From NCBI GenBank assembly GCA_015521085.1, contig WAOW01000006.1, forward strand, positions 1 to 64,000: a DNA stretch of 64,000 nt. The letters are read 5' to 3'. This DNA comes from Candidatus Thermodiscus eudorianus (lineage in GTDB: Archaea > Thermoproteota > Thermoprotei_A > Sulfolobales > Acidilobaceae). Made by a program: the position numbers and the translations under genes. Position 1 is the stretch's first letter. Every line of letters starts with the position of its first letter. A model generated the notes under the pieces. That model saw nothing but the letters and a program-made list of their open reading frames with translations. It did no database searches and was not told where the DNA came from. This document shows positions 49,465-64,000 of the stretch, in pieces.

Positions 49465-50856
49465 TTAGGCGGGAGACTGGAATCGCGGCCTTAGCATCCT
49501 TTCCCTACACTCATCGCAGAGGTATATCGCCTTAATAGCCCTCTCGGGTAGGCCCCTCGACCTCATCACCTCCTCCACCTTAAGGAACATCCTACGGGGA
49601 CCCAGAGGCTTGCCGCACACCCTGCACCGCACTAGTTTATCCTCGGCGACGACAACCTCCCTACCATAAAGCCTGGTGTCAACAGAGAAGCTGACCTCAA
49701 TAGCATCATGGGGGCAAACCTTGAGACACGCCTCACAGCTCACGCATTTAGAATGCCTAAACACCAGGGTAATCCTGCTATCCTCGATCCTCTTCTCCAG
49801 AGCCCCGGTCGGGCAATTCACAACACATGCATCACAGAGCGTGCAGTTCTCATTAACCTCTATAACGCCCAAGACAGGAGTCCTGGTCTCAAGCCTCTCC
49901 AAGCCCAGCAGGGCTATGGCCCGGGCGGGGGCGGCATCCGGAGCATATCCGCCCTCTGGAAGGCCTTGCCTCCTCAGCTCCCTGGACAGCTCCTTCCTCG
50001 AAGCCGCTATCCTGGCTAGTCTATTGAGGTGGGGGTCCTCGGCGAGCTTACCCCTGGGATCGTATATTATAGTGTCCACCCCATAGGTTAGCCCCGTGAT
50101 GAGAGTCTTCTCGTCAATCCACCCCAGGTCATCGACTATCTCGACTATGAAGGGCGTAGCCTCATCGGGGTACTCTAGACCCTTTAACTCGTCTATCTCC
50201 ATTACCAGGAGCCTCAATGGCCCATCATAGTATCTCCTGATGTAGCTGAGGACCCTCTCGACCCTGTAGGGACCCCAGCGCGGCATTGTCAAGACGTTGA
50301 ACGGGCATTCATGGACGCATATCCCGCACCAAGTGCACCTGTCTATGGCGAGTGATGGAGGCTTGCCCACCAGCGCGTTCTCGGGGCACCTCTCTACGCA
50401 TCTTGTACACCGGGGCACTATCGCGCAGGCCTGGTAATTCACCATTATGGGGGCCGGGACGTACTCTCGTATCGCCCTCTGCGGGCGTAATAGTAGCGTG
50501 CGCCTGGTCACGCTCTTGCTAGCGTTGACGCGGTACTCCATCTTCCAGGGCTTGCTGGCCATTACAGCCTCTAGCCTGGCCCCGGGTAGTAGCCTGGCTA
50601 GGCTCCTGGGTAGGACTTCCATGTAGAGGGTGTCTAGGGGCTCGTAGAGGTATGGGTTTCCCCCCTCGCTCCTAACCAGCCTATGGATCCCGGGGTACTC
50701 CTTGAAGGCGCCCCGGTATATGCCGACTACAGGCATGCCCGAGAGGACACGGTCCAATACGAGCTCCCTGACATTGCCATCAACCGCCTTCACATCAAGG
50801 CCCTCGGGGAAGGGCCCGAACCGCTCGACGACCTCCTTAGAAGCTATAACGGTCAA
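49465..50856 (-). CDS. Multi-cluster ferredoxin protein
   Basis: The 463-residue iron-sulfur protein has four Cys sets, in order: CAIVPRCTRCVERCPENAL, CTWCGICVHECPFNVL, CTLCDACVVNCPTGAL and CVSCEACLKVCPHDAIEV. Together they suit several 4Fe-4S clusters. CRVCGKPLG and CDECRERML at the C-terminus form a zinc-ribbon or rubredoxin-like knuckle. The first 120 residues are a unique domain and the middle 100 a Rossmann-like segment. The TTG overlaps the tatC stop (TTGA), so it is coupled to Tat export genes. There is no signal peptide, so it would be a cytosolic electron carrier or maturation factor of the Mo-enzyme module. Confidence 0.78.
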   Translation of the reverse strand: MTVIASKEVVERFGPFPEGLDVKAVDGNVRELVLDRVLSGMPVVGIYRGAFKEYPGIHRLVRSEGGNPYLYEPLDTLYMEVLPRSLARLLPGARLEAVMASKPWKMEYRVNASKSVTRRTLLLRPQRAIREYVPAPIMVNYQACAIVPRCTRCVERCPENALVGKPPSLAIDRCTWCGICVHECPFNVLTMPRWGPYRVERVLSYIRRYYDGPLRLLVMEIDELKGLEYPDEATPFIVEIVDDLGWIDEKTLITGLTYGVDTIIYDPRGKLAEDPHLNRLARIAASRKELSRELRRQGLPEGGYAPDAAPARAIALLGLERLETRTPVLGVIEVNENCTLCDACVVNCPTGALEKRIEDSRITLVFRHSKCVSCEACLKVCPHDAIEVSFSVDTRLYGREVVVAEDKLVRCRVCGKPLGPRRMFLKVEEVMRSRGLPERAIKAIYLCDECRERMLRPRFQSPA

Positions 50857-51731
50857 GCAGCCTCCCCTCCTGGGATGCGTTGAGCCCTACCCTGACCCCT
50901 GCCCCTAGGGGCGGACCTGGAGCCTAGCCAGGCCGCTACCATTATAGCGGCGAACATCGCCGTGCCTATCACCATCATGCCAATACCGCTCGGGTCGGGG
51001 CTTATCGCCGCGCCCAGGAGCATTGATGCTAGTAGGACGTATTTCCTGTTCTCCCCGACGAACCAGGTGTGGTCTATCACGGCTAGGGATACTAGGAGGT
51101 AGACTATCAGGGGGGTTTCGAAGGCTATCCCGGTTGCCACCGCTATGAGTATTATCGTGGTGAAGAGCTGTTCTACGTCGCTGAAGGCTATGAGGGTCTT
51201 CTCCCCCGTGACGGCTGTCGACGTTATAATCATTATCCTGAAGGCTAGGGGCATTACTATGGTGAACGCGACTACGACGCCCAGAGCGAATAGTATCACG
51301 GCGAATACTGAGAATATCTTGACCTTCCTCCTCTCATAGGGGTATAGTCCTGGGGCTATGTAGCCGTAGATCTCCCTCGCTATAACGGGGCTCGCGCCCA
51401 ACAGGCCTAGGAGCAGGGCGGTCTTCAAGAGTATGTTGAACCCGGCGAAGGGGTTGTACTGGGCTATGTGGACCTCGATTACCCTGCCACGCCACACTAC
51501 CTGGTCTGGCAGAACGTAGCCTAGAACCATGTCGGGGAAGTAGCTGATCAAGGGGATATAGTACTTGTAGTCGATTGGTATAGCCGAGAGTACGGCCCCG
51601 GCTATTATGACCGAAATGAATATCCTCCGGAGCCTTAGGGATAGCTCTGCTACGTGACTCCATATAGGCCTCGGCTCGTCATAGAACGGCCCATTATCCC
51701 CTGACACTGTTACATCTCCTGCCAATCCCAA
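50853..51731 (-). CDS. tatC: Sec-independent translocase TatC
   Basis: The 292-residue TatC protein has IWSHVAELSLRLRRIFISVI (conserved HxxELRxR-like start), six TM helices, and ARVIAREIYGYIAPGLYPYE RRKVKI near residue 130, the conserved cytosolic loop. GIAFETPLIVYLLVSLAVID holds the FExP-type motif. TatC recognises twin-arginine signals. TTG at 51731. It follows tatA after 75 bp and precedes the ferredoxin gene with overlap. The C-terminal 20 residues are basic. Confidence 0.9.
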   Translation of the reverse strand: MGLAGDVTVSGDNGPFYDEPRPIWSHVAELSLRLRRIFISVIIAGAVLSAIPIDYKYYIPLISYFPDMVLGYVLPDQVVWRGRVIEVHIAQYNPFAGFNILLKTALLLGLLGASPVIAREIYGYIAPGLYPYERRKVKIFSVFAVILFALGVVVAFTIVMPLAFRIMIITSTAVTGEKTLIAFSDVEQLFTTIILIAVATGIAFETPLIVYLLVSLAVIDHTWFVGENRKYVLLASMLLGAAISPDPSGIGMMVIGTAMFAAIMVAAWLGSRSAPRGRGQGRAQRIPGGEAA

Positions 51732-54129: not shown

Positions 54130-54696
54130 CTATGGAGGAATCACGTATACCTTGGGCTTGGTCCCCAGCTCTGGCCCGAGCGTTACGGCGTGCTTGGCGA
54201 GTCTAGCGACCCTGCTCTCCGGGTCGTCTAGGTCGCCGAAGACTATGGAGTCCGTCGGACAGGCCTCTGCACACGCCGGCTGGAGGCCTTCCTTCAGCCT
54301 GTGTATGCACATAGTGCACTTGTCGGGGCCTCCCAGGGCCTCGTTCACGTATCTAGCGTCGTAGGGGCATGCCACCAGGCAGTATTTACAGCCTATGCAT
54401 AAATCATGGTCGACTAGGACTATGCCGTCCTCGGTCTTGTAGGTTGCACCGGTTGGGCAGACGGCCGCGCAGGGGGCCTCCTCGCAGTGCATGCATGTCC
54501 TGTGGTAGTGGGCGCGTATGACTGAGGGGAACACGCCCTTCTCTGAGACCCATATATCCCTTCTACCGCCAAGCGGTACTACCGCGTCCTCTTTGATCTC
54601 GCTGAGCACGAGTGTGTTCTCCTCGCTACACGCGGCGACGCAATCGCCGCAGCCTATGCATGTGGATAGGTCTATCACGAATCCATACCTAGCCAT
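54130..54696 (-). CDS. Four-cluster Fe-S subunit of Mo reductase (DmsB/PsrB type)
   Basis: The 188-residue protein has four Cys motifs: STCIGCGDCVAACSEENTLV, CMHCEEAPCAAVCPTGATY, CIGCKYCLVACPYDARYVNE and CTMCIHRLKEGLQPACAEAC PTDSI. This is the DmsB/PsrB/PhsB ferredoxin with four 4Fe-4S clusters, passing electrons from the membrane subunit to the catalytic one. It has no signal and would be exported bound to the catalytic subunit by Tat. ATG at 54696 overlaps the end of the catalytic gene by 8 nt. Confidence 0.9.
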   Translation of the reverse strand: MARYGFVIDLSTCIGCGDCVAACSEENTLVLSEIKEDAVVPLGGRRDIWVSEKGVFPSVIRAHYHRTCMHCEEAPCAAVCPTGATYKTEDGIVLVDHDLCIGCKYCLVACPYDARYVNEALGGPDKCTMCIHRLKEGLQPACAEACPTDSIVFGDLDDPESRVARLAKHAVTLGPELGTKPKVYVIPP

Positions 54697-57247
54697 AGGG
54701 CATCACCCTAACTATAACATCCTGGTCCGACGAGGATGCCGAGGGGTTCCTGTAGTCGACCATGACCGGCTTGATCACCCCGTCGCCTCCCTTTATCGTG
54801 AACTCGTAGCTCTTCATGAACCTTGACAGCTGCCCGATGCCGTGTGGCACGAATATGACGTCAGGCCGGACCGCCTCGGTCACGTGGACCCTGCCAGCGA
54901 GCCTGTACCTGGGCTTGTGCAGTGTCGCCTCCTCGCTGAAGGTCCTGACAGCCTCCACGAGGACCAGGTCCCCCTCCTTTACGCCGATCCTCGCGGCGGT
55001 CGAGGGGTGTATCCAGATCCTGTTCGCGTGGTGCTTGGCGAGGAAGTACATCAGCCACTCGTTGTTAACCGTCTTGGAGTGCCTGTTCATGCTGAAGACC
55101 GATGTGACTAGCACGAGCTCGCCCTCGCCTAGCCCCTCGTAGGTGAAGGTGTCCATCCAGCGGGGGAGGGGGTCGTAGCCGTGCTCCGCCAGCTCTACTG
55201 GGAGTAGCTCTATCCTGCCGGACCTTGTCTTGAGCTTCCTCAGGTCCTTGGGCGTCCAGTCGAGAGAGAATATCTTCTCCCTCTGGAGCTGTTCTAGCGT
55301 GACACTAGTCCCGAGCTTCTTGTTGTACAGGTCTATCATCTTCTGCAGCTCTTCCTCCTTCGACACGAGGAAGTATTCGCTGAAGTAGTTGTTCTCCAGG
55401 TCCTCCCTAGTTATGCCGAGTCTCTCCGCGATCCTGTAGGCTAGTTGTTTGACTATCCATTTCTCGCTCTTGGCCTCGGGGTGTACCGGGGGTATGCCGT
55501 CGACCCAGTGTATCCTGTAGGTTAGGTCGAAGCTCTTGGAGTATCCTATAGTGGGCCCGCCCTCTAGGAAGAGCTTCTCGGGGAGGACTACGTCGGCTAG
55601 TGTGGCCATCTCGTCGGGGTATATGTTGACGTTGACTATGATCCCGTCGTTATCCTCCACGACGTGCTTGATAGCGGCCTCCACGAGCTCGTAGTCCATG
55701 AAGGCCTGGAGGCCCTGGGCCCATACTACGACGACCTTGACGGGGTACGGGTTGTCGTGGAGTATATTGTACCAGACCTTCTGGAACACCCCCTCCTTGG
55801 CGTACTTCTTGTAGACGGGGAACTTCTCCCTCTCATCAACAGTAAGCCCCCGGTACTCCTCCGGTATAGGGTATAGGTCTGCGAAGGTCTTCTTGGGCTT
55901 CTTGCTAACGGCCTTCTTAACGAACTTGGCGGTCCTATTGAATAGCCAGCCTCCCCTCCTCTCGACGTTACCGGTCAAGGCCATGAGGAGTGCAATGGCC
56001 TTGTAGGTCTCGACCCCCTGCCTCCTATTAGGCCCTGTACCGCCAGACCTCTTCCAGTGCGGAATACTAGCCGGCTTCACAGTGGCCAGCTCCCTCGCTA
56101 TCTCCCTAATCTTAGAGCTCGGGACCCCGCTGACCCTCTCGGCCCACTCCGGGGTATACTCCCTCATCCTCTCCCTCAGGAGCCTGAAGACCGTCGCGAC
56201 ACGCCTACCCTTATACACGCCCTCCCAGTCAAGGGCAGGAGACCCCGCCTCCCCGACCGGTACGATCTCGCCCCGTACAGTGTCATAGACCAGGAGCTCT
56301 CCATCGCTGGCATAGGTCAGCTTCTCCCTGTCTACCAGTATGGGCGCGTTCGTGTAGTTGACCAGGAAGTCCCTATCGTATAGCTCCTCCTCTAGTATGA
56401 CGTTGGCCATGGCGAAGGCGACCGCCGCGTCTGTGCCCGGCTTTATGGGTATCCACTCGGTGGCCTTGCTCGCCGTCTCGGAGAGCCGGGGCTCGAATAC
56501 TATGATCTTGGCTCCACGCCTCTTGGCCTCCGAGAACAGCCATGGGAAGGGGTTCTTTGACTTGCCGGCTCCCTGGTCGAAGCCGAAGGCCACTATCAGC
56601 TTCGAGTTAGCCATGTCGGCGTTCGGCACAGAGCCGTACATTGGCTTGAGGACTACGTCCCACGTGGAATGGCACGTGGTATGGTGCTTGACCACGTTGG
56701 GGGTCCCGATTAAGCTAGCCAGAGCTCCCCCCTTGCCGTGGCCTATGAAGACTATCGACTGGGGCCCCCACTCCCTTATAGCCTCGGCCATCTTATCCGC
56801 TACAAGGTCCAGGGCCTCGTCCCAGGTGGCCTCCCTCCACTTGGGGTCCTTCACTCCAACTACGGCTCCCTTGTCGTCTAGTATGAAGCCCCTGTCCCTG
56901 CTCGTCCTTATGAGGGGCTTCCTGAGCCTGTCTGGGTCGTATAGCATCTTCAGGGAGGTCTTGCCCTTGACGCATGGCGTCCCGTGGGAGACCCAGTCCC
57001 GCGGGTCGCCCTCTATCTTCACAAGCCTCCCGTTCCTGTCAACGTACCCCTTTAGTACACACCCGCCACCGCATATCCGGCAGACGAAGTAGCGCTCCTC
57101 TAGACCGCGTCCTTCGACTGCTGACTCTAGGAGGCTCATGGAGTCCCTCTTGAGGAATATGCCGTCTACACCAGCCTTGCTGGTCGCGGCTATCGCTGTG
57201 GATACGGCTGCCAGCTTTAGGAACTCTCTGCGTTTGAGCTTGGGCAT
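54689..57247 (-). CDS. Tat-exported molybdopterin oxidoreductase (sulfur/polysulfide/thiosulfate reductase type)
   Basis: The 852-residue member of the DMSO reductase superfamily has twin-arginine signal KLKRREFLKLAAVSTAIAAT. Cys56, 59, 63 and 92 (CRICGGGC and TPCVKGK) bind the FS0 4Fe-4S cluster. Cys192 in HHTTCHSTWDVV is the likely Mo ligand. Later segments AGKSKNPFPWLFSEAKRRGA, ITREDLENNYFSEYF, NRHSKTVNNEWLMYFLAKHH and IWIHPSTAARIGVKEGDLVL are typical of the large-subunit fold. The A-B-C gene order with an NrfD-type anchor fits polysulfide, sulfur or thiosulfate reductase; tetrathionate or arsenate reductases cannot be excluded. ATG at 57247 with GGGTGTC site. Confidence 0.85.
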   Translation of the reverse strand: MPKLKRREFLKLAAVSTAIAATSKAGVDGIFLKRDSMSLLESAVEGRGLEERYFVCRICGGGCVLKGYVDRNGRLVKIEGDPRDWVSHGTPCVKGKTSLKMLYDPDRLRKPLIRTSRDRGFILDDKGAVVGVKDPKWREATWDEALDLVADKMAEAIREWGPQSIVFIGHGKGGALASLIGTPNVVKHHTTCHSTWDVVLKPMYGSVPNADMANSKLIVAFGFDQGAGKSKNPFPWLFSEAKRRGAKIIVFEPRLSETASKATEWIPIKPGTDAAVAFAMANVILEEELYDRDFLVNYTNAPILVDREKLTYASDGELLVYDTVRGEIVPVGEAGSPALDWEGVYKGRRVATVFRLLRERMREYTPEWAERVSGVPSSKIREIARELATVKPASIPHWKRSGGTGPNRRQGVETYKAIALLMALTGNVERRGGWLFNRTAKFVKKAVSKKPKKTFADLYPIPEEYRGLTVDEREKFPVYKKYAKEGVFQKVWYNILHDNPYPVKVVVVWAQGLQAFMDYELVEAAIKHVVEDNDGIIVNVNIYPDEMATLADVVLPEKLFLEGGPTIGYSKSFDLTYRIHWVDGIPPVHPEAKSEKWIVKQLAYRIAERLGITREDLENNYFSEYFLVSKEEELQKMIDLYNKKLGTSVTLEQLQREKIFSLDWTPKDLRKLKTRSGRIELLPVELAEHGYDPLPRWMDTFTYEGLGEGELVLVTSVFSMNRHSKTVNNEWLMYFLAKHHANRIWIHPSTAARIGVKEGDLVLVEAVRTFSEEATLHKPRYRLAGRVHVTEAVRPDVIFVPHGIGQLSRFMKSYEFTIKGGDGVIKPVMVDYRNPSASSSDQDVIVRVMPYG

Positions 57248-57280
57248 TTAAGACACCCTTCGGGGGCCGGTTATACTAGT

Positions 57281-57326
57281 GATATATATTCTGAGGGATA
57301 TAAATATATAGATTGCTATATAAATA
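57281..57326. promoter_or_regulatory. Divergent promoter region of the Mo reductase and TorD genes
   Basis: The AT-rich 115-bp gap holds - strand AATATATATC (57290-57281), placing a start near 57262 for the reductase operon, and + strand TATATAAATA (57317-57326), placing a start near 57344 for the chaperone gene. The facing boxes make coregulation likely. Confidence 0.6.
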
Positions 57327-57362
57327 CTTGCTAGACTCTAGAAGTATAATATCTAGCCTAGA

Positions 57363-57971
57363 ATGTATATACGAGGGAGCGGGTTGAGGGAATGCATCGC
57401 ATTAACCTCCAAGATAGCAGCCACTCTAGAACGCCTCCTCCTGAACCCCAAATACGTAGAGAAGCGCTGGGAGAGCCTAGACGCCGGCAGCGACTGCCCA
57501 GCAGCACAGTGTAGAGAGGCGCTGTTGCTAGCCACGCGAGCCTCCGAGAAACTGTACGCCGGGCCTCCCGACGAACTGGAGATAGAGTACACGAGGCTCT
57601 TCACCGCCTCCTACCCAAGGCCCAAGTGCCCGATATACGAGTCATACTATCTCGGGGGAGAACACACGCTGGGAAAACCAGACATAATAGACGACCTCTA
57701 CAGTATCATTAGAGAAGCAGGGCTCAAGCTAGACACCACAAGAGAGCGGCTCCCAGACAACATACCTGTAATCCTAGAACTATACTCGATAATATCCAGC
57801 AGCGCCCACATAGACGCCCAGCCCATCCTGAGGAAGCTGGCCTACAACCACCTCATAGAAACACTACCCAGGCTAGCGAAATGCATAGACGAGAACACAG
57901 AGACCGAGTACTACAGGCTAGTGAGCAAAGCCCTGGCTAGATACTCGGAGTGCCTCAGAGAGATACTATAA
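57363..57971 (+). CDS. TorD/DmsD-type redox enzyme maturation chaperone
   Basis: The 202-residue all-helical protein resembles TorD/DmsD-family chaperones: ELEIEYTRLFTASYPRPKCP with the conserved E-x-x-R-L-F motif, IYESYYLGGEHTLGKPDIID, AGLKLDTTRERLPDNIPVIL and CIDENTETEYYRLVSKALAR. Such proteins bind the twin-arginine signal and apo-enzyme until the Mo cofactor is inserted. It is encoded divergently from the Mo reductase and shares its promoter region. ATG at 57363. Several cysteines occur, which is unusual for the family. Confidence 0.78.
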   Translation: MYIRGSGLRECIALTSKIAATLERLLLNPKYVEKRWESLDAGSDCPAAQCREALLLATRASEKLYAGPPDELEIEYTRLFTASYPRPKCPIYESYYLGGEHTLGKPDIIDDLYSIIREAGLKLDTTRERLPDNIPVILELYSIISSSAHIDAQPILRKLAYNHLIETLPRLAKCIDENTETEYYRLVSKALARYSECLREIL

Positions 57972-58395
57972 GGGGGAAAGAAAAACCCGGCCCCTAGGGA
58001 CCCCCGGCGATCCCAAGCGCCTCCCCAAACCCCAAAGGGGAGGCGTTCCTGTCGAGGGTGGGGTTATGCTTCTCACGGCGTCGTGGCGCGCCGTGGCGGG
58101 CCTTATGGCCCTCCTCATACGCCCCCCGCCGGCGGGGCTCGCCCCTCTCGCAGCACCGGGCTGGCGCTCTTGGATGTGCATCGGGGCGTGTCTATAGCGT
58201 GTGTATTGGGGGTCCCTGGGGGCCGGGCCGTCTAATTATACATTGTCTGGGAGAGGATAAATCGTTTTCCCATGGTTATCCCACTGTTTTCAGCGTACCC
58301 GGGATCCTGGGCCCCCGTATTTGCTCTATATGGGGCTCTGAAATTCAGAGTATCATCGTGGCTTATTTCCCCAGTGAGGCTACATTTAATCCCTG
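57972..58395 (+). ncRNA. 424-nt gap with a 242-nt self-complementary segment, candidate structured RNA
   Basis: CCCGGCCCCTAGGGACCCCC (57986-58005) pairs over all 20 positions with GGGGGTCCCTGGGGGCCGGG (58208-58227), with one U-G wobble only on the + strand. Enclosed are further hairpins: CGCCTCCCC/GGGGAGGCG (58018-58045), GGGCC-TTAT-GGCCC (58098-58111) and CCCCGCC/GGCGGGG (58124-58137). No convincing protein is encoded. It is not recognised as SRP or RNase P RNA because their core motifs were not found. The first hairpin may also end the TorD transcript. From 58230 to 58395 the DNA is AT-richer promoter DNA for the ABC exporter. Confidence 0.45.
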
Positions 58396-59340
58396 GTGGA
58401 GGCCGTGGAGCCACTGGTTGTCGTAGAGAACCTTGCCAAGATATACAGGGACGGGTCCGTCGGCGTGGACAACGTGTCCTTCGAGGCGGGCGAGGGCATA
58501 ACGATGCTCATGGGCCCGAATGGCAGCGGCAAGACCACGACGATGTCCATTATAGCCGGGGCCCTAACGCCCACGCGGGGGAGCGTGAGGGTCTGCGGCT
58601 ACGAGGTCTGGGGCAGCGGGTGGGAGAGGGCCCGCGAGTGCATAGGGTTCGCCCCCCAGGACATGCCCTTCAGGCTGCGCCTCACGGTGATGGAGAACCT
58701 GGTATGGTATGGGCTCCTCAGGGGCCTCGGTATGGGCGAGGCTAAGAGGAGGGGGTTGGAGCTACTGGAGGCCCTGGGCCTGTTGGAGCATAGGGGTAAG
58801 AAGGTCCAGCAGCTCAGTGGTGGGATGAGGAAGAAGCTCTCTATAGCGGCGGCGATGATGGGTGATCCGAGGGTCTTGATACTCGACGAGCCGACGAGCG
58901 GGTTGGACCCGGCTGCGAGGAGGGAGTTGTGGAGGATTATAAGGGGCCTGGCGGGTGGCCGCGTGGTCCTTGCGAGCACGCATATAGCTGAGGATGCCGA
59001 GGAGAACGCTGACAGGGTCCTTATCTTCCATAGGGGTAGGATTGTGGCCGAGGGCAGGCCGCTCGACCTGATAAGGGAGCACGCTGGGTTCGCTAGGATT
59101 AGGATTCGCGGGGTCTTGAGGGACCCTCCGCCTTCTAACGGCGAGTATAAGCTGTTGAGGGTTTCTGACGGCGAGGCCTGGTATTTGACTAGGGATCCCG
59201 ATACCGTGCTCCCCAGGATTATAGAGGTTTTAATTAATAATAATTCTAGTATAGAGCTCGTTGAGGTGAAGAAGCCCGGGCTCGCAGAGGTGTACCTACA
59301 CCTGACCGGGGTGGAGCTTGGAGAGGGGGTGGAGGAGTGA
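58396..59340 (+). CDS. ABC-2 type exporter ATPase
   Basis: The 314-residue ATPase of the CcmA/DrrA/NatA class has Walker A LMGPNGSGKTTTMSIIAG, Q-loop IGFAPQDMPFRLRLTVM, signature QQLSGGMRKKLSIAAAMMG, Walker B VLILDEPTSGLDPAARREL and switch His in LASTHIAEDAEENADRV. The last 70 residues form a DrrA-like C-terminal domain. It pairs with the ABC-2 permease encoded next, overlapping in the start. GTG at 58396 or 58405. Substrate (drug, lipid or polysaccharide) is unknown. Confidence 0.88.
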   Translation: MEAVEPLVVVENLAKIYRDGSVGVDNVSFEAGEGITMLMGPNGSGKTTTMSIIAGALTPTRGSVRVCGYEVWGSGWERARECIGFAPQDMPFRLRLTVMENLVWYGLLRGLGMGEAKRRGLELLEALGLLEHRGKKVQQLSGGMRKKLSIAAAMMGDPRVLILDEPTSGLDPAARRELWRIIRGLAGGRVVLASTHIAEDAEENADRVLIFHRGRIVAEGRPLDLIREHAGFARIRIRGVLRDPPPSNGEYKLLRVSDGEAWYLTRDPDTVLPRIIEVLINNNSSIELVEVKKPGLAEVYLHLTGVELGEGVEE

Positions 59341-60581
59341 TGGGCTCGCTAAACAGGATACTGAGCGAGGCATACGTGGGGGTCAAGGGCATATTCAGGT
59401 ACAAGGAGGTACTCTTCTGGGTGATACTATTCCCCATACTCTTCTACGGGCTAATGATAGGCATATGGGGGAACACGAGCTACAACCCTATCAAAGCCGG
59501 CATATACGACCCCGACAACGGAGTGGTCCTAGAGAACGGGACCAGGCTAGACCTCAGCGACGCGCTGAAGACCGCCATGAACGAGTCCAAGGTATTCAAG
59601 ATCTACATATACGACAACGAGACCAAGCTCATTGAAAGCGTGAAGCGGGGAGGAGTAGACGTCGGGCTCATAATACCTGGTAACTTCACCGAGTCACTCC
59701 TCAACATGACCCCCGCGACCATACGCCTAGTCACCCTGAAGACCCCCTGGGGCGACTACAATAGAGAGGCCACCATAGGCTTCCTCAACGGGTTCGCCGA
59801 CGGCATCAGGGAGAGATACCTCAACATGACCATGAAGTTTGCGGTGCAATACGTCCCAGAGGAGTACAAGGCCTACCTGGGCAACTGGTTCAACTTCCTC
59901 AGGAAACCGCTGACTGTCAACGAGACCCTCTACACGCCGCCACTCCTAGAGACGCCGGAGGGCGTGAGGGCCTTCTACGCCATAGGAATGATAGGGGTCG
60001 AGATACTCTTCATAGGCCTCTCAACTGGCACGAGTAGCATAATAGACATGAAGAAGGAGGGGACCCTCAGGATAATCCTCTCCTCGCCCATAAGGAAGTG
60101 GGAGCTGCTGGCTTCGCTGACCCTATCGACGCTGATAGCTGTGGCGATATCCTCCCTGTCAATAATACTCTTCAGCCTGGCGCTCGGGGCCAGCTACAAC
60201 ATATCGCTACAGGCGGCCATAGCGATAATAGCGTTGCTGGCGCTTGGAGCACTATTCACTATAGGGCTAGGCCTACTACTGGCACCCCTAGCCAGGAGCC
60301 AGGAGGCGGCCATGGTCATAGTAAACGCTATCGCGTTCCCGATAATGTTCATCGGCGGGATAGTAATCCCGAAGTTCATACTGCCAGAGAGCCTCCAGGT
60401 AGTCGCCGACGTATACCCGCTCTCCCGCGAGATAGAGGCGATAAGGAGGATGACCCTATACAACTACACTCCAGGCGAGGCCCTGGCCATGGCATGGCCA
60501 GCGATAGCAGGAACCATAATAGTCTACGCGATAGGCCTAGCGATATTCAACAAGCTACTAGCCAGGGCCGCGGAAGAGTAA
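59340..60581 (+). CDS. ABC-2 type exporter permease
   Basis: The 413-residue protein has an N-terminal TM (LFWVILFPILFYGLMIGIWG), a large extracytoplasmic domain of about 190 residues with several NxT/S sites, and five further TM helices at the C-terminal end (AIGMIGVEILFIGLSTGTSS through AMAWPAIAGTIIVYAIGLAI). This is the ABC2_membrane_3 (YhgE/YbhR-like) layout. The ATG at 59340 overlaps the ATPase stop (TGATG); GTG 59337 is an alternative. Together the two genes encode a complete exporter. Confidence 0.85.
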   Translation: MGSLNRILSEAYVGVKGIFRYKEVLFWVILFPILFYGLMIGIWGNTSYNPIKAGIYDPDNGVVLENGTRLDLSDALKTAMNESKVFKIYIYDNETKLIESVKRGGVDVGLIIPGNFTESLLNMTPATIRLVTLKTPWGDYNREATIGFLNGFADGIRERYLNMTMKFAVQYVPEEYKAYLGNWFNFLRKPLTVNETLYTPPLLETPEGVRAFYAIGMIGVEILFIGLSTGTSSIIDMKKEGTLRIILSSPIRKWELLASLTLSTLIAVAISSLSIILFSLALGASYNISLQAAIAIIALLALGALFTIGLGLLLAPLARSQEAAMVIVNAIAFPIMFIGGIVIPKFILPESLQVVADVYPLSREIEAIRRMTLYNYTPGEALAMAWPAIAGTIIVYAIGLAIFNKLLARAAEE

Positions 60582-60610
60582 ACAAGGGGGGTCCCCCAGG
60601 GCAATATAGA

Positions 60611-60660
60611 AATGATAATACCATAAATGATAATACCATAGACGCCCTCCGAGGCGGAGG
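60611..60660 (+). repeat. Perfect 15-bp tandem duplication and adjacent hairpin
   Basis: AATGATAATACCATA occurs twice back to back (60611-60625 and 60626-60640). A CCTCCG-AGG-CGGAGG hairpin follows at 60646-60660, just before the Cas4-like gene. The duplicated unit carries a weak TATA-like ATAATACC and may be part of that gene's promoter. Confidence 0.6.
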
Positions 60661-60669
60661 CACGCTATA

Positions 60670-61323
60670 GTGGAGTGGGAGGCGCCAATAGCCTACACGG
60701 GCGCGGTAACAGGCTACCTACTAGAATCCTCATACTACTGCGAGTACAAGCCCCTACTAGACGCTAGGAGGACCGGGAGGATAGGCCCCGGCAGGGCCAG
60801 GGAGCTGGCCAGGAAAATGCTCGAAGCCCTCAGGCGCGTGCCCAGGAAGGGCAGGGGGTTCGTCAAGGTAACCCTGGTGGGGGAAGTCGACGGGGTCCCG
60901 GCCATAGTGAGCCCCGACGCGGTATACTACGAGGATGGGAGGCCCCGGGCCCTGGTGAGGGCTAGGATAAGGGGCAGGCTACGGGTATACCCCGGTGACT
61001 GGGCCCCGCTAATACTAGCCGCCCACATACTAGAAACAACAACCAATACAGGCGACGCCACCCTAGCGGTCGCTGTAGGCCTAGACGAGTCGAGCCTAGC
61101 CACTGCCCTGTCAAACCTGAAGATGCACGGGCCTAAGCCAGCTAAGGGAGGCAAATGGATGGTCACAACCAGAATATACAACCCGGTGGCCGACCTCCAC
61201 GAGCTAAGAGACAAGATAGCCCTGCTAGCCGGCGGGAGGTCGCCCCGCGTGGGAGGCGGGCGCCGGTGCCAATACTGCCCATACAACGGCGAGTGCCCCT
61301 GGAGTGCGGGTCGAGAATCCTAG
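60670..61323 (+). CDS. Cas4-like PD-(D/E)XK family protein with degenerate catalytic core
   Basis: The 217-residue protein is Cas4-like. YLLESSYYCEYKPLLDARRT has the N-terminal Cys of the Fe-S site, and RCQYCPYNGECPW supplies three C-terminal Cys. TLVGEVDGVPAIVSPDAVYY gives the Asp strand, but the next strand reads RALVRARIRGR where an E-x-K is expected, so nuclease activity is doubtful. Stand-alone Cas4-like proteins occur in archaea and viruses. No CRISPR array or other cas gene is in the window. GTG start at 60670. Roles in DNA end processing or as an antagonist of Cas4 are guesses. Confidence 0.65.
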   Translation: MEWEAPIAYTGAVTGYLLESSYYCEYKPLLDARRTGRIGPGRARELARKMLEALRRVPRKGRGFVKVTLVGEVDGVPAIVSPDAVYYEDGRPRALVRARIRGRLRVYPGDWAPLILAAHILETTTNTGDATLAVAVGLDESSLATALSNLKMHGPKPAKGGKWMVTTRIYNPVADLHELRDKIALLAGGRSPRVGGGRRCQYCPYNGECPWSAGRES

Positions 61324-61344
61324 CAAGGATTTATCCCCGGGGCC

Positions 61345-61450
61345 CGTGATAGTGTTTACCCGGGCGATGGAGTGGCTTGACCGCTGCCGACCCCCACCGC
61401 CTCCATGGGGGGATGGCGAGCGAACCCGAGCCTCAAGCCGCCCATTCTCC
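61345..61450 (+). ncRNA. Candidate structured RNA
   Basis: GTGGCTTGA (61372-61380) pairs with TCAAGCCGC (61433-61441). Inside, CGCT-GCC-GA-CCCCCA (61382-61396) pairs with TGGGGG-GAT-GGC-G-AGCG (61406-61422), leaving a purine-rich GA/GAT internal loop. A GATTTATCC TATA-like box at 61328-61336 would place a start near 61355. No protein is encoded between the Cas4-like gene and 61516. A terminator structure is the alternative. Confidence 0.35.
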
Positions 61451-61515
61451 CGCCACTGACTCCATGTTATATTCCCCGGTGCACGACGGGCTACTAAACC
61501 CAGGGGTGTACGTGT

Positions 61516-62094
61516 ATGCCGGAGATTAGGGTTGAAGTGAGCGGCGAGGCGCTGCGCGGCCTTGAAAAGCTTGCCGAGAGCCTGAAGACTAGCGTCGAGG
61601 ACCTAGTGAGTAGTTCCCTTGAATCCATGTCGGCCTACTCGGGCCACCTGGCGCGCTGGGGGCTGGAGCTTAGGGTTAGGAAGGAGCATAGGGTGGCCAG
61701 CCTCTTCGACGAAGTGTACTTCTACGCCGTGGAGGCTTGGGGAGGGCTAGTATCCAGGATACTGGATAGGTTGAAGGCCAGGGGGAGGTTCGAGCTTGAG
61801 ATGCTAGAGTTCGACCCGGAGGAGCCGGGGGTTATAGTGGAGCTCGTGGCCCTTGAGGGGAGCGACCTCCTGGCCGACAAGATCAGGATAGACTGGGGCG
61901 TGAACGAGGTCCTCGTCGAGGCCTACTACTACCTCGAAGAGGGGGAGGAGCCTCCCCTGCCCAGGCAGGGCGAGGGCTTTGACTGGGTCTACCTGCCGGA
62001 CGAGAGGGCGGTGGTGGTGACCGTGAGGGCCCCCAAGCTCTCCATGATACCGCCGGTCCACGTGATAGACAAGTACTCGGGGCTAGCCGAGTAG
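61516..62094 (+). CDS. Hypothetical protein with a ribbon-helix-helix-like N-terminus
   Basis: The 192-residue protein begins with a segment resembling a ribbon-helix-helix domain (EIRVEVSGEALRGLEKLAES LKTSVEDLVSSSLESM). About 140 residues of alpha/beta character follow, with VRKEHRVASLFDEVYFYAVE and FDWVYLPDERAVVVTVRAPK. I do not recognise the family. ATG at 61516 with GGGGTG upstream and a GTTATATTC box near 61465. It is the first of four + strand genes with small gaps or overlaps, which may be an operon. Confidence 0.6.
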   Translation: MPEIRVEVSGEALRGLEKLAESLKTSVEDLVSSSLESMSAYSGHLARWGLELRVRKEHRVASLFDEVYFYAVEAWGGLVSRILDRLKARGRFELEMLEFDPEEPGVIVELVALEGSDLLADKIRIDWGVNEVLVEAYYYLEEGEEPPLPRQGEGFDWVYLPDERAVVVTVRAPKLSMIPPVHVIDKYSGLAE

Positions 62095-62136
62095 GCTTCC
62101 GAGGATGAGGGGAGGGTCCCTCCGGGGAGTAGTGCA

Positions 62137-62952
62137 ATGAAGGGTCTGCTAGTTGTGAACGACTCCATACCCCTGTCCATGGCCCCGGCGATACCGCTGT
62201 TCATAGCTCCCAGGTTTCCCGGGGGCTACGATGTCGTAGTAGCGGTCTCCCGCCTAGCCACCGGGGGGCTGACTGTGGGGAGCCTCGGGTCCCTGTGGAG
62301 CGGTGAGGATGGGGTTCGTAGAGCCAGTGGAGGCGGCCGGTACCATGCAGAGGCGGGCGACTATCACGTGGCGATCGTGCTCCGCAGTGGATCGCTTAGG
62401 TGGGTCTACTCCAGGTACGAGGAGGAGCTCCAGGGTGACGGCGTTGTCGGGATCGGCAAGAGCTCCGGGAAGCCCTTCGTAGAGGTATACACTGGAAGGG
62501 ACCCCCTAGGCAGGATAGAGGAGCTGTTCCCGGGGCTGGAGGAGGGGGACCCCATAGAGCCCGAGCTACTAGAACCCATAGCCGTGGACCTGGCCAGGGA
62601 CGAGTGGAGGGACCCCATAGAGGGGGGCTCCCGGCTCGCCTCGTACCGCGTTGCTAGTGGGAGGCACTATTTCGGCTTGGTGGGGGTGGTGGGCGAGGAG
62701 GGCCTCATCCTGAGGGCCTGGCCCGACTCGACTATCCACGTCTACCCGCCCGGCCTGGCCAGGAGTGTCGTGAAGGAGATAGGCATGGCCCCGCCCAGCA
62801 TGCCCCTGGCATTCCACGCGGCCAACGGCTTCCTCAGCCTAGTGGAGTATGCTGGCGTGGAGTCAAACCATATAGTCGAGGCCTTCCAGGGGTTCATACG
62901 AGAGGCTGAGAAGCTTGCAGGAGGAGATAGAGGTCAGGGAGGAGTCCCATAG
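62137..62952 (+). CDS. Unrecognised protein
   Basis: The 271-residue protein is mostly beta in prediction by eye, with GLLVVNDSIPLSMAPAIPLF at the start, GRYHAEAGDYHVAIVLRSGS, ASGRHYFGLVGVVGEEGLIL and a helical end VEAFQGFIREAEKLAGG. No catalytic motif or family is recognised. Two VxxxR/HYxF segments look like an internal duplication (residues about 60-85 and 165-190). ATG at 62137. It overlaps the thioesterase gene by 38 nt if the TTG start of that gene is right. Confidence 0.6.
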   Translation: MKGLLVVNDSIPLSMAPAIPLFIAPRFPGGYDVVVAVSRLATGGLTVGSLGSLWSGEDGVRRASGGGRYHAEAGDYHVAIVLRSGSLRWVYSRYEEELQGDGVVGIGKSSGKPFVEVYTGRDPLGRIEELFPGLEEGDPIEPELLEPIAVDLARDEWRDPIEGGSRLASYRVASGRHYFGLVGVVGEEGLILRAWPDSTIHVYPPGLARSVVKEIGMAPPSMPLAFHAANGFLSLVEYAGVESNHIVEAFQGFIREAEKLAGGDRGQGGVP

Positions 62953-63283
62953 GGCCTGTGCAATGGAGTTCACCGTTGGGGAGGAGCACCTGGCGCTCCA
63001 CCTAAAGGAGAGGGGGCGCCGCGTGCTATCGACTCCCTGCCTCGTCCTAATGATGGAGGTAACCGCCAGGACCTGCCTAGACCTAGCCCTCCCCGCCGGT
63101 AAGACTAGCGTCGGCTACAGGGTCGACGTGAGGCATAGGAAGAGCGTTGGGGAGGGGGAGAAGGTGAGGGTGGAGGCCAGGCTGGTGTCCTTCGATGGTA
63201 GGAGGGCGTTGTTCCACGTGACGGCCTATAGCCGCGGCGAGGTCGTCGGCGAGGCCATACACGAGCGCTACGTGGTGGATTAG
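62915..63283 (+). CDS. FlK-like hotdog thioesterase
   Basis: The 122-residue single hotdog-domain protein is most like fluoroacetyl-CoA thioesterase FlK relatives. VLSTPCLVLMMEVTARTCLD carries the Thr and Glu positions, KTSVGYRVDVRHRKSVGEGE the conserved His, and LVSFDGRRALFHVTAYSRGE VVGEAIHERYVV the C-terminal strands. These relatives hydrolyse acyl-CoA thioesters; fluoroacetate itself is not implied. TTG at 62915 gives full length; ATG 62963 would remove 16 residues. A nucleotidyltransferase gene follows after 4 bp. Confidence 0.78.
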   Translation: MQEEIEVREESHRACAMEFTVGEEHLALHLKERGRRVLSTPCLVLMMEVTARTCLDLALPAGKTSVGYRVDVRHRKSVGEGEKVRVEARLVSFDGRRALFHVTAYSRGEVVGEAIHERYVVD

Positions 63284-63287
63284 GGGT

Positions 63288-64000
63288 ATGACGCCTAGAC
63301 CCGCATATCCCGGCGTCGAGGTCGAGTATGACGAGTGGAGGTGGAGGGTTCTAGCAGAGAAGAGGGCTAAGGCCGTGAAGATCATGGAGGCTCTCAGGCC
63401 CCTGCGCGTCGAGGTCATAGTCCACGGTAGCATAGCCCGGGGCGACGTTGACAGGGACTCGGACGTCGACGTCGTGGTCGTCGAGCCCGTCTCCCCAGGC
63501 ATCGTGGAACTCCTGCTTGAGAGGGCCGGCTATAGGGTTAGATATAGGGAGATCGTGCAGGCGACGCCCAACTATACCCCAAAGGTCTACTTCTACCTGG
63601 ATGAGGCGGAGGAGCAGGTCGTCAGCGTCCCCCTGGCGGTTTTGAAGCCGAGGGAGAGGGAGTTCTATAGGTGGGGCGGGGAGCTGGGCCTGGAGGGGGT
63701 CCGGGCGGGCAAGAGGGTCCCCGGGGTCAACAAGGACCTCGTACTCATTATACCGACCGAGAGGGGGCATGTCGAGGTCGAGCTTGAGGGTAACGAGAGG
63801 CTGGCGGCTAAGCTGACCGGCGTGAGCCTTGAGACCGTCGAGGAGAGGATACGGGTGTTGTCGAGGCGCAGGGAGCACGGCAGGACGGGGGTATTCGTCA
63901 AGAGGCCCGTCCCCCCGGGCAAGAGCGTTGAGGAGGTAGTCGAGGAGGTCGCCAGGGAGAACCCCTACTTCAGGAGGGCCCTAGGCCCTAGGCGGGTCTA
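63288..64000 (+). CDS. Nucleotidyltransferase-domain protein, cut by the right window edge
   Basis: From ATG 63288 the frame stays open for 237 codons to the window end. The motif VIVHGSIARGDVDRDSDVDV has the GSxxRG and SDxD elements of polymerase-beta-type nucleotidyltransferases. Later KTYFYL-like and KVYFYLDEAEEQVVSVPLAV and KRVPGVNKDLVLIIPTERGH strands follow, with a basic ERIRVLSRRREHGRTGVFVK region. It is longer than MNT antitoxins and may be a nucleic-acid-modifying enzyme. The C-terminus is missing here. It starts 5 bp after the thioesterase stop. Confidence 0.75.
   Translation, partial: MTPRPAYPGVEVEYDEWRWRVLAEKRAKAVKIMEALRPLRVEVIVHGSIARGDVDRDSDVDVVVVEPVSPGIVELLLERAGYRVRYREIVQATPNYTPKVYFYLDEAEEQVVSVPLAVLKPREREFYRWGGELGLEGVRAGKRVPGVNKDLVLIIPTERGHVEVELEGNERLAAKLTGVSLETVEERIRVLSRRREHGRTGVFVKRPVPPGKSVEEVVEEVARENPYFRRALGPRRV

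Follow-up and report, generated by a model that had tools for sequence, protein, structure and literature searches.

A GC-rich, helix-bounded segment next to a torD-like gene of Candidatus Thermodiscus eudorianus: a possible lineage-specific non-coding RNA gene

What is the GC-rich segment, bounded by a long terminal helix, that occupies positions 57986–58227 in the gap between a torD-like gene and an ABC transporter gene of Candidatus Thermodiscus eudorianus? The genome comprises 1.52 Mb in 10 contigs and is 95.5% complete; the window, i.e. the whole stretch of DNA analysed, covers contig C6 from its first base to base 64,000. Stems, motifs and GC content were counted in a 464-kb sample, made up of the window and a further 400 kb of the genome. 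An initial annotation had considered a new structured RNA, an unrecognised form of a known RNA or a mobile element with terminal inverted repeats, and had suggested searches of Rfam, of the genome for further copies and of the flanks for target-site duplications. The torD-like gene (57363–57971, + strand; PF02613) codes a TorD/nitrate reductase delta-like chaperone. It forms a divergent pair with a molybdopterin oxidoreductase gene (54689–57247, - strand) and is convergent with the RNA proposed here. Beyond the segment is an ABC transporter ATPase gene (58396–59340, + strand; PF00005), the first of an ABC gene pair. A palindrome, CTCTGAAATTCAGAG, is found at 58336–58350, some 50 bases upstream of this gene, whose relatives in L028, L029 and L032 have upstream palindromes that appear similar by eye; to judge from these sequences, it is likely the operator of a regulator common to those relatives. 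The description of the segment as non-coding holds: all six of its frames score negative by codon-usage log ratio and the overlapping 122-aa frame (58058–58426) has no Pfam match. A hidden or decayed gene was rejected on the negative codon score. Apart from itself, a 48-residue frame from the interior matches two sequences weakly (E 0.007 and 0.008), one of them in the same genome where, by reading of the sequence, it appears to lie antisense within a peptidase gene.

On the + strand the two arms of the terminal helix (57986–58005 and 58208–58227), each 20 nt long, join at 19 positions by Watson-Crick pairing and at one by a U-G wobble, which confirms the pairing first described; on the - strand the wobble turns into an A-C mismatch. 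In the sense of the - strand, pairing and fold prediction define 58208–58227 as the 5' arm and 57986–58005 as the 3' arm. The folding z of the whole segment is -5.42 on the + strand and -4.75 on the - strand, with 0 of 200 shuffles as stable, and is -4.14 for the - strand segment with its tails. Three inner hairpins, given with no strand specified, are predicted in the centroid at 58016–58047 (11 bp, with a 9-bp form also on the - strand), 58074–58095 (8–9 bp) and 58098–58111 (5 bp, also in the - strand fold). The earlier count of at least three is thus matched by prediction, but these hairpins are no more stable than those of shuffled sequences: the interior without the helix has a z of -1.23 (+) and -1.31 (-), and 22 and 23 of 200 shuffles, respectively, are at least as stable. 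The excess folding stability comes from the terminal helix, because the interior alone folds like shuffles.

Could the helix be due to chance? When stems with a span of 60–400 are scored (GC 3, AT 2, GT 1, mismatch -4), it is the top stem of the 464 kb with a score of 58, followed by a runner-up at 53. The score of 58 is also reached in 2 of 48 simulated 464-kb sets (2/16 with the order-3 model, 0/16 with order 5 and 0/16 with order 6), while order-1 and order-4 simulations, each of 928 kb, have maxima of 47 and 50. A genome-wide search would therefore yield such a stem by luck occasionally. The helix exceeds chance at its place, yet not astronomically so genome-wide. Among the 7-mers over-represented in the sample, GGGACCC, a word contained in each arm, ranks second, with 288 occurrences against 202 expected; across the sample, GGGACCC/GGGTCCC is located mostly within genes, in no single codon phase. 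The second-best long stem of the sample, at 50585–50940 (25 nt, 88% complementary, 306 nt between arms), has its left arm inside one open frame and its right arm inside the next.

The use of GC islands as markers of RNA genes is an established idea, best known in AT-rich genomes, and Klein and co-workers are said to have reported in 2002 that such islands mark RNA genes in hyperthermophiles. The genome studied here is not AT-rich. In the 464-kb sample, 129 stretches of 150 nt or more are free of genes; these were ranked by their richest 150 bases and the top seven were inspected. The segment ranks second, between the SRP RNA (first) and the RNase P RNA (third), followed by the gene of an NTP-transferase-like protein (fourth), the tRNA-Leu stretch (fifth), the gene of a 104-aa protein (sixth) and the 5S rRNA (seventh). 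The six other stretches are thus four RNA genes and two overlooked protein genes, ranks four and six being, by reading of their frames, protein genes that the gene caller missed.

No relatives of the segment are detectable. A DNA search of four congeners (draft genomes of 65–87% completeness) gives no full match, and the same kind of search finds the RNase P RNA in three of the four at 83–85% identity. In 213 other genomes of the order, with at most three candidates scored per genome, there is no relative at E <=1e-4. Short DNA matches occur in 12 of 59 relatives besides the own genome (best E 3.5e-4), and the four such loci that were examined by frames are all inside an open frame. A covariance model built on the single sequence has matches at E up to 10 in 8 of 47 other genomes and nothing better than E 0.19 outside the own genome, the best of these falling in protein-coding frames. 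The torD-like and ABC genes are not adjacent in any relative among the matches listed, and a TorD query has no match in a collection of genome contigs. Covariation is not countable because no homologue was found. If the segment is an RNA gene, the lack of relatives therefore implies that it is young or fast-evolving, not a conserved housekeeping RNA. Among the papers listed for Thermodiscus genomes and non-coding RNA, and for Desulfurococcales small ncRNA transcriptomes, none concerns this locus.

Sequences that resemble transcription signals are found at both ends of the helix. A promoter matrix trained on 142 divergent gene upstreams identifies a promoter-like BRE/TATA site, GGAAAACGATTTATCC (58255–58270, - strand; matrix score 8.25), which is the best site on both strands of 57851–58420 and belongs to the top 0.2% of sampled positions. 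The - strand from 57248 to 63350 carries no gene of at least 170 codons that could use it. Its TATA centre at about 58259 predicts a start near 58233 (58231–58233, - strand), six bases outside the helix and ~26 nt downstream of the centre, a position deduced from archaeal spacing: in a Sulfolobus study, the TATA motif precedes the starts of ncRNAs by 24–30 bp and is itself preceded by an A-rich pattern (PMC12817955). On the - strand the helix is immediately followed by a T-rich tract, TTTTTCTTT (57977–57985), which fits TTTTTYT, described in a minireview as the termination motif of the messages of the Sulfolobus virus SSV1 (PMC9608457). Of the features of archaeal intergenic and antisense ncRNAs, the segment has the terminator-like T-rich 3' tract, TTTTTCTTT (57985–57977), and lacks protein coding; its candidate promoter, GGAAAACGATTTATCC, is the best site of the region, but the start is itself deduced from it.

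TTTTTYT occurs 32 times in 464 kb, both strands summed. In a count of 773 stems scoring at least 30 in the same sample, each taken on two strands and with search windows chosen after the signals at this locus were known, TTTTTYT lies no further than 12 nt after the helix in one case, this locus, and a promoter-like site of at least 8 is in place in 30 stem-strand cases; both signals together are found only here, even at a promoter limit of 6. None of 9 sampled tRNA genes, nor the RNase P RNA of the genome, has TTTTTYT within 35–40 nt downstream, and the promoter matrix is noisy, its best RNase P site being placed 14 nt from the gene. Given the post hoc windows and these RNA genes that do without the motif, the joint signals are suggestive, not proof. 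Note that this locus is absent from the list of a joint promoter-terminator scan, in which the gene caller took frames of 100 codons as genes, probably because 58058–58426 (the 122-aa frame) was masked as a gene; the scan listed two pairs in L101 that have one terminator in common.

The observations made so far bear on a first alternative, namely that the segment codes no RNA and is gene-free GC-rich DNA composed of words common in the genome, such as GGGACCC, that happen to pair. An interior no better than shuffles, the simulated sets that equal the stem score, the over-represented arm word and the lack of relatives are all in keeping with chance; against it stand the gene-free position, the signals at both ends and a GC rank next to those of the SRP and RNase P RNAs. 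Chance is considered unlikely, though an alternative to be reckoned with.

A second alternative concerns the strand. Transcribed from the + strand, the segment would serve the torD-like gene as a structured 3' UTR or as a transcript barrier, blocking 3' decay or insulating the ABC genes. The + strand folds best (-149.3 kcal/mol and z -5.42, versus -135.8 kcal/mol for the - strand) and keeps the wobble as a pair, which counts against the - strand. In a GC-corrected scan of 5739 windows the segment is the most extreme on the + strand, and 60 windows are more extreme on the - strand, in a setting that favours the segment by its hand placement versus grid windows; the RNase P start, hand-placed likewise, reaches a z of only -1.28 (+) and -1.6 (-). 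However, no T-rich tract follows the helix within about 35 nt on the + strand. The best TATA-like site of this strand (57958–57973, score 7.71) is weaker and would start transcription at ~57995, inside the helix, though a separate promoter is not required for a 3' UTR. The - strand is favoured because the promoter-like site and the T-tract both fall on it, and the 3' UTR explanation is judged improbable, with some weight left to it.

A small non-autonomous mobile element would account for inverted repeats at the ends of the segment. However, the segment is single copy in the genome, with no second arm at up to two mismatches, and has no match in phage and plasmid collections; no target-site duplication is obvious by eye in the flanks (gaaaaa before, ccgtct after). 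A 17-base arm pattern has two matches in viral contigs, and neither has another arm-like word in the 400 bases to its left or right. The single copy, the lack of another arm and of a phage or plasmid match led to rejection of this option, which is very improbable. Least credible is a known RNA in divergent form (SRP, RNase P, box C/D or another Rfam family), an option invited by the size and closed ends of the segment, which resemble those of SRP RNA, and rejected since no Rfam family reaches its curated cut-off at the segment (the tRNA-Leu is alone in the window) and the genome has its SRP-like RNA on contig C3 (RF01857, 91.9 bits, slightly below the cut-off of the family) and its RNase P RNA on contig C5 (RF00373, 175.3 bits). 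The segment matches neither of these two models, its sole match in a relaxed Rfam scan is Xist_exon1, far below cut-off and due to chance, and no C box (RTGATGA) is present on either strand of 57901–58420. The lack of an Rfam match, the single copy and the SRP and RNase P RNA genes elsewhere leave the segment as neither a known RNA nor a repeat. The SRP RNA match itself (L106:19832–19964) stops 36 bases short of the contig end, and its score may be just under the cut-off because its 3' part is probably cut off there. Separate from this locus are two tRNA-Val genes (L098:16266 and 18196) that are near-identical over about 160 bases including upstream sequence and differ within the gene by one base, apparently in the anticodon (GAC vs TAC); the sequences suggest a recent duplication in which the anticodon changed. 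CRISPR-like arrays at L089:8623–9823 and L102:1936–2658 have the word AACATAGAATTGAAA in common, in 19 and 12 copies, respectively, spaced by about 59–76 bases.

The reading that we favour, with a probability of just under one half (about 0.48), places on the - strand an ncRNA gene specific to this lineage. It would meet the torD-like gene tail to tail, and its RNA would most likely act at the 3' end of the torD message. A new structured RNA is thereby the best supported of the three options raised at the outset, moved from the + strand used there to the - strand that the signals favour. The start predicted 6 nt outside the helix, the T-tract directly after it and the GC rank count for this reading, from which we infer transcription, strand and function of an RNA of about 257 nt (57977–58233, - strand). 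TBP/TFB would bind GGAAAACGATTTATCC (58270–58255), transcription would begin near 58233, and RNA polymerase would copy about 257 nt before stopping in the U-tract TTTTTCTTT (57985–57977), about six bases short of the stop codon of torD. Both RNA ends would close into the GC-rich helix, with 19 pairs and one A-C mismatch, probably lengthened by G-U pairs with the U-tract, and this end-closing helix would shield the RNA at high temperature. Any torD message that continues beyond its stop codon would show full complementarity to the proposed RNA. On account of the tail-to-tail ends and this complementarity, its likeliest role would be that of a stable cis-antisense or 3'-end RNA that limits or terminates torD read-through. 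That it represents a new class of stand-alone structured RNA from one Thermodiscus-like lineage, acting in trans or antisense to the adjoining molybdoenzyme maturation gene, is doubtful.

The proposed RNA shares with archaeal SRP RNA (RF01857), whose ends are paired, a high GC content and a length of about 250–300 nt, but the segment has no RF01857 match and the SRP-like RNA is on another contig. Archaeal RNase P RNA (RF00373) is likewise a GC-rich structured RNA, and an A-rich GGAAAAC stretch upstream is common to the RNase P RNA of this genome and the proposed RNA; the former is present elsewhere in the genome and in three of four congeners, whereas no full match to the segment was found in any of the four. 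The intergenic and antisense ncRNAs of Sulfolobus acidocaldarius have a TATA site 24–30 bp upstream with an A-rich element before it and are discrete RNAs beside or opposite a protein gene (PMC12817955), an arrangement that the proposed RNA would share. Those ncRNAs were found, according to the same text, by matching transcript starts to 3' ends no more than 400 bp away, whereas the RNA proposed here is a single, strongly folded candidate locus of another lineage.

The proposed RNA would be as GC-rich as SRP and RNase P RNA and end-closed by a helix of 20 positions. Were the segment transcribed, it would add a highly structured RNA gene that curated families overlook for want of relatives, and would argue for seeking RNA genes of hyperthermophiles by joining GC content and terminal pairing with the archaeal signals for start and stop. 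The locus may further be relevant to the way in which torD-like genes in molybdoenzyme clusters are bounded or regulated.
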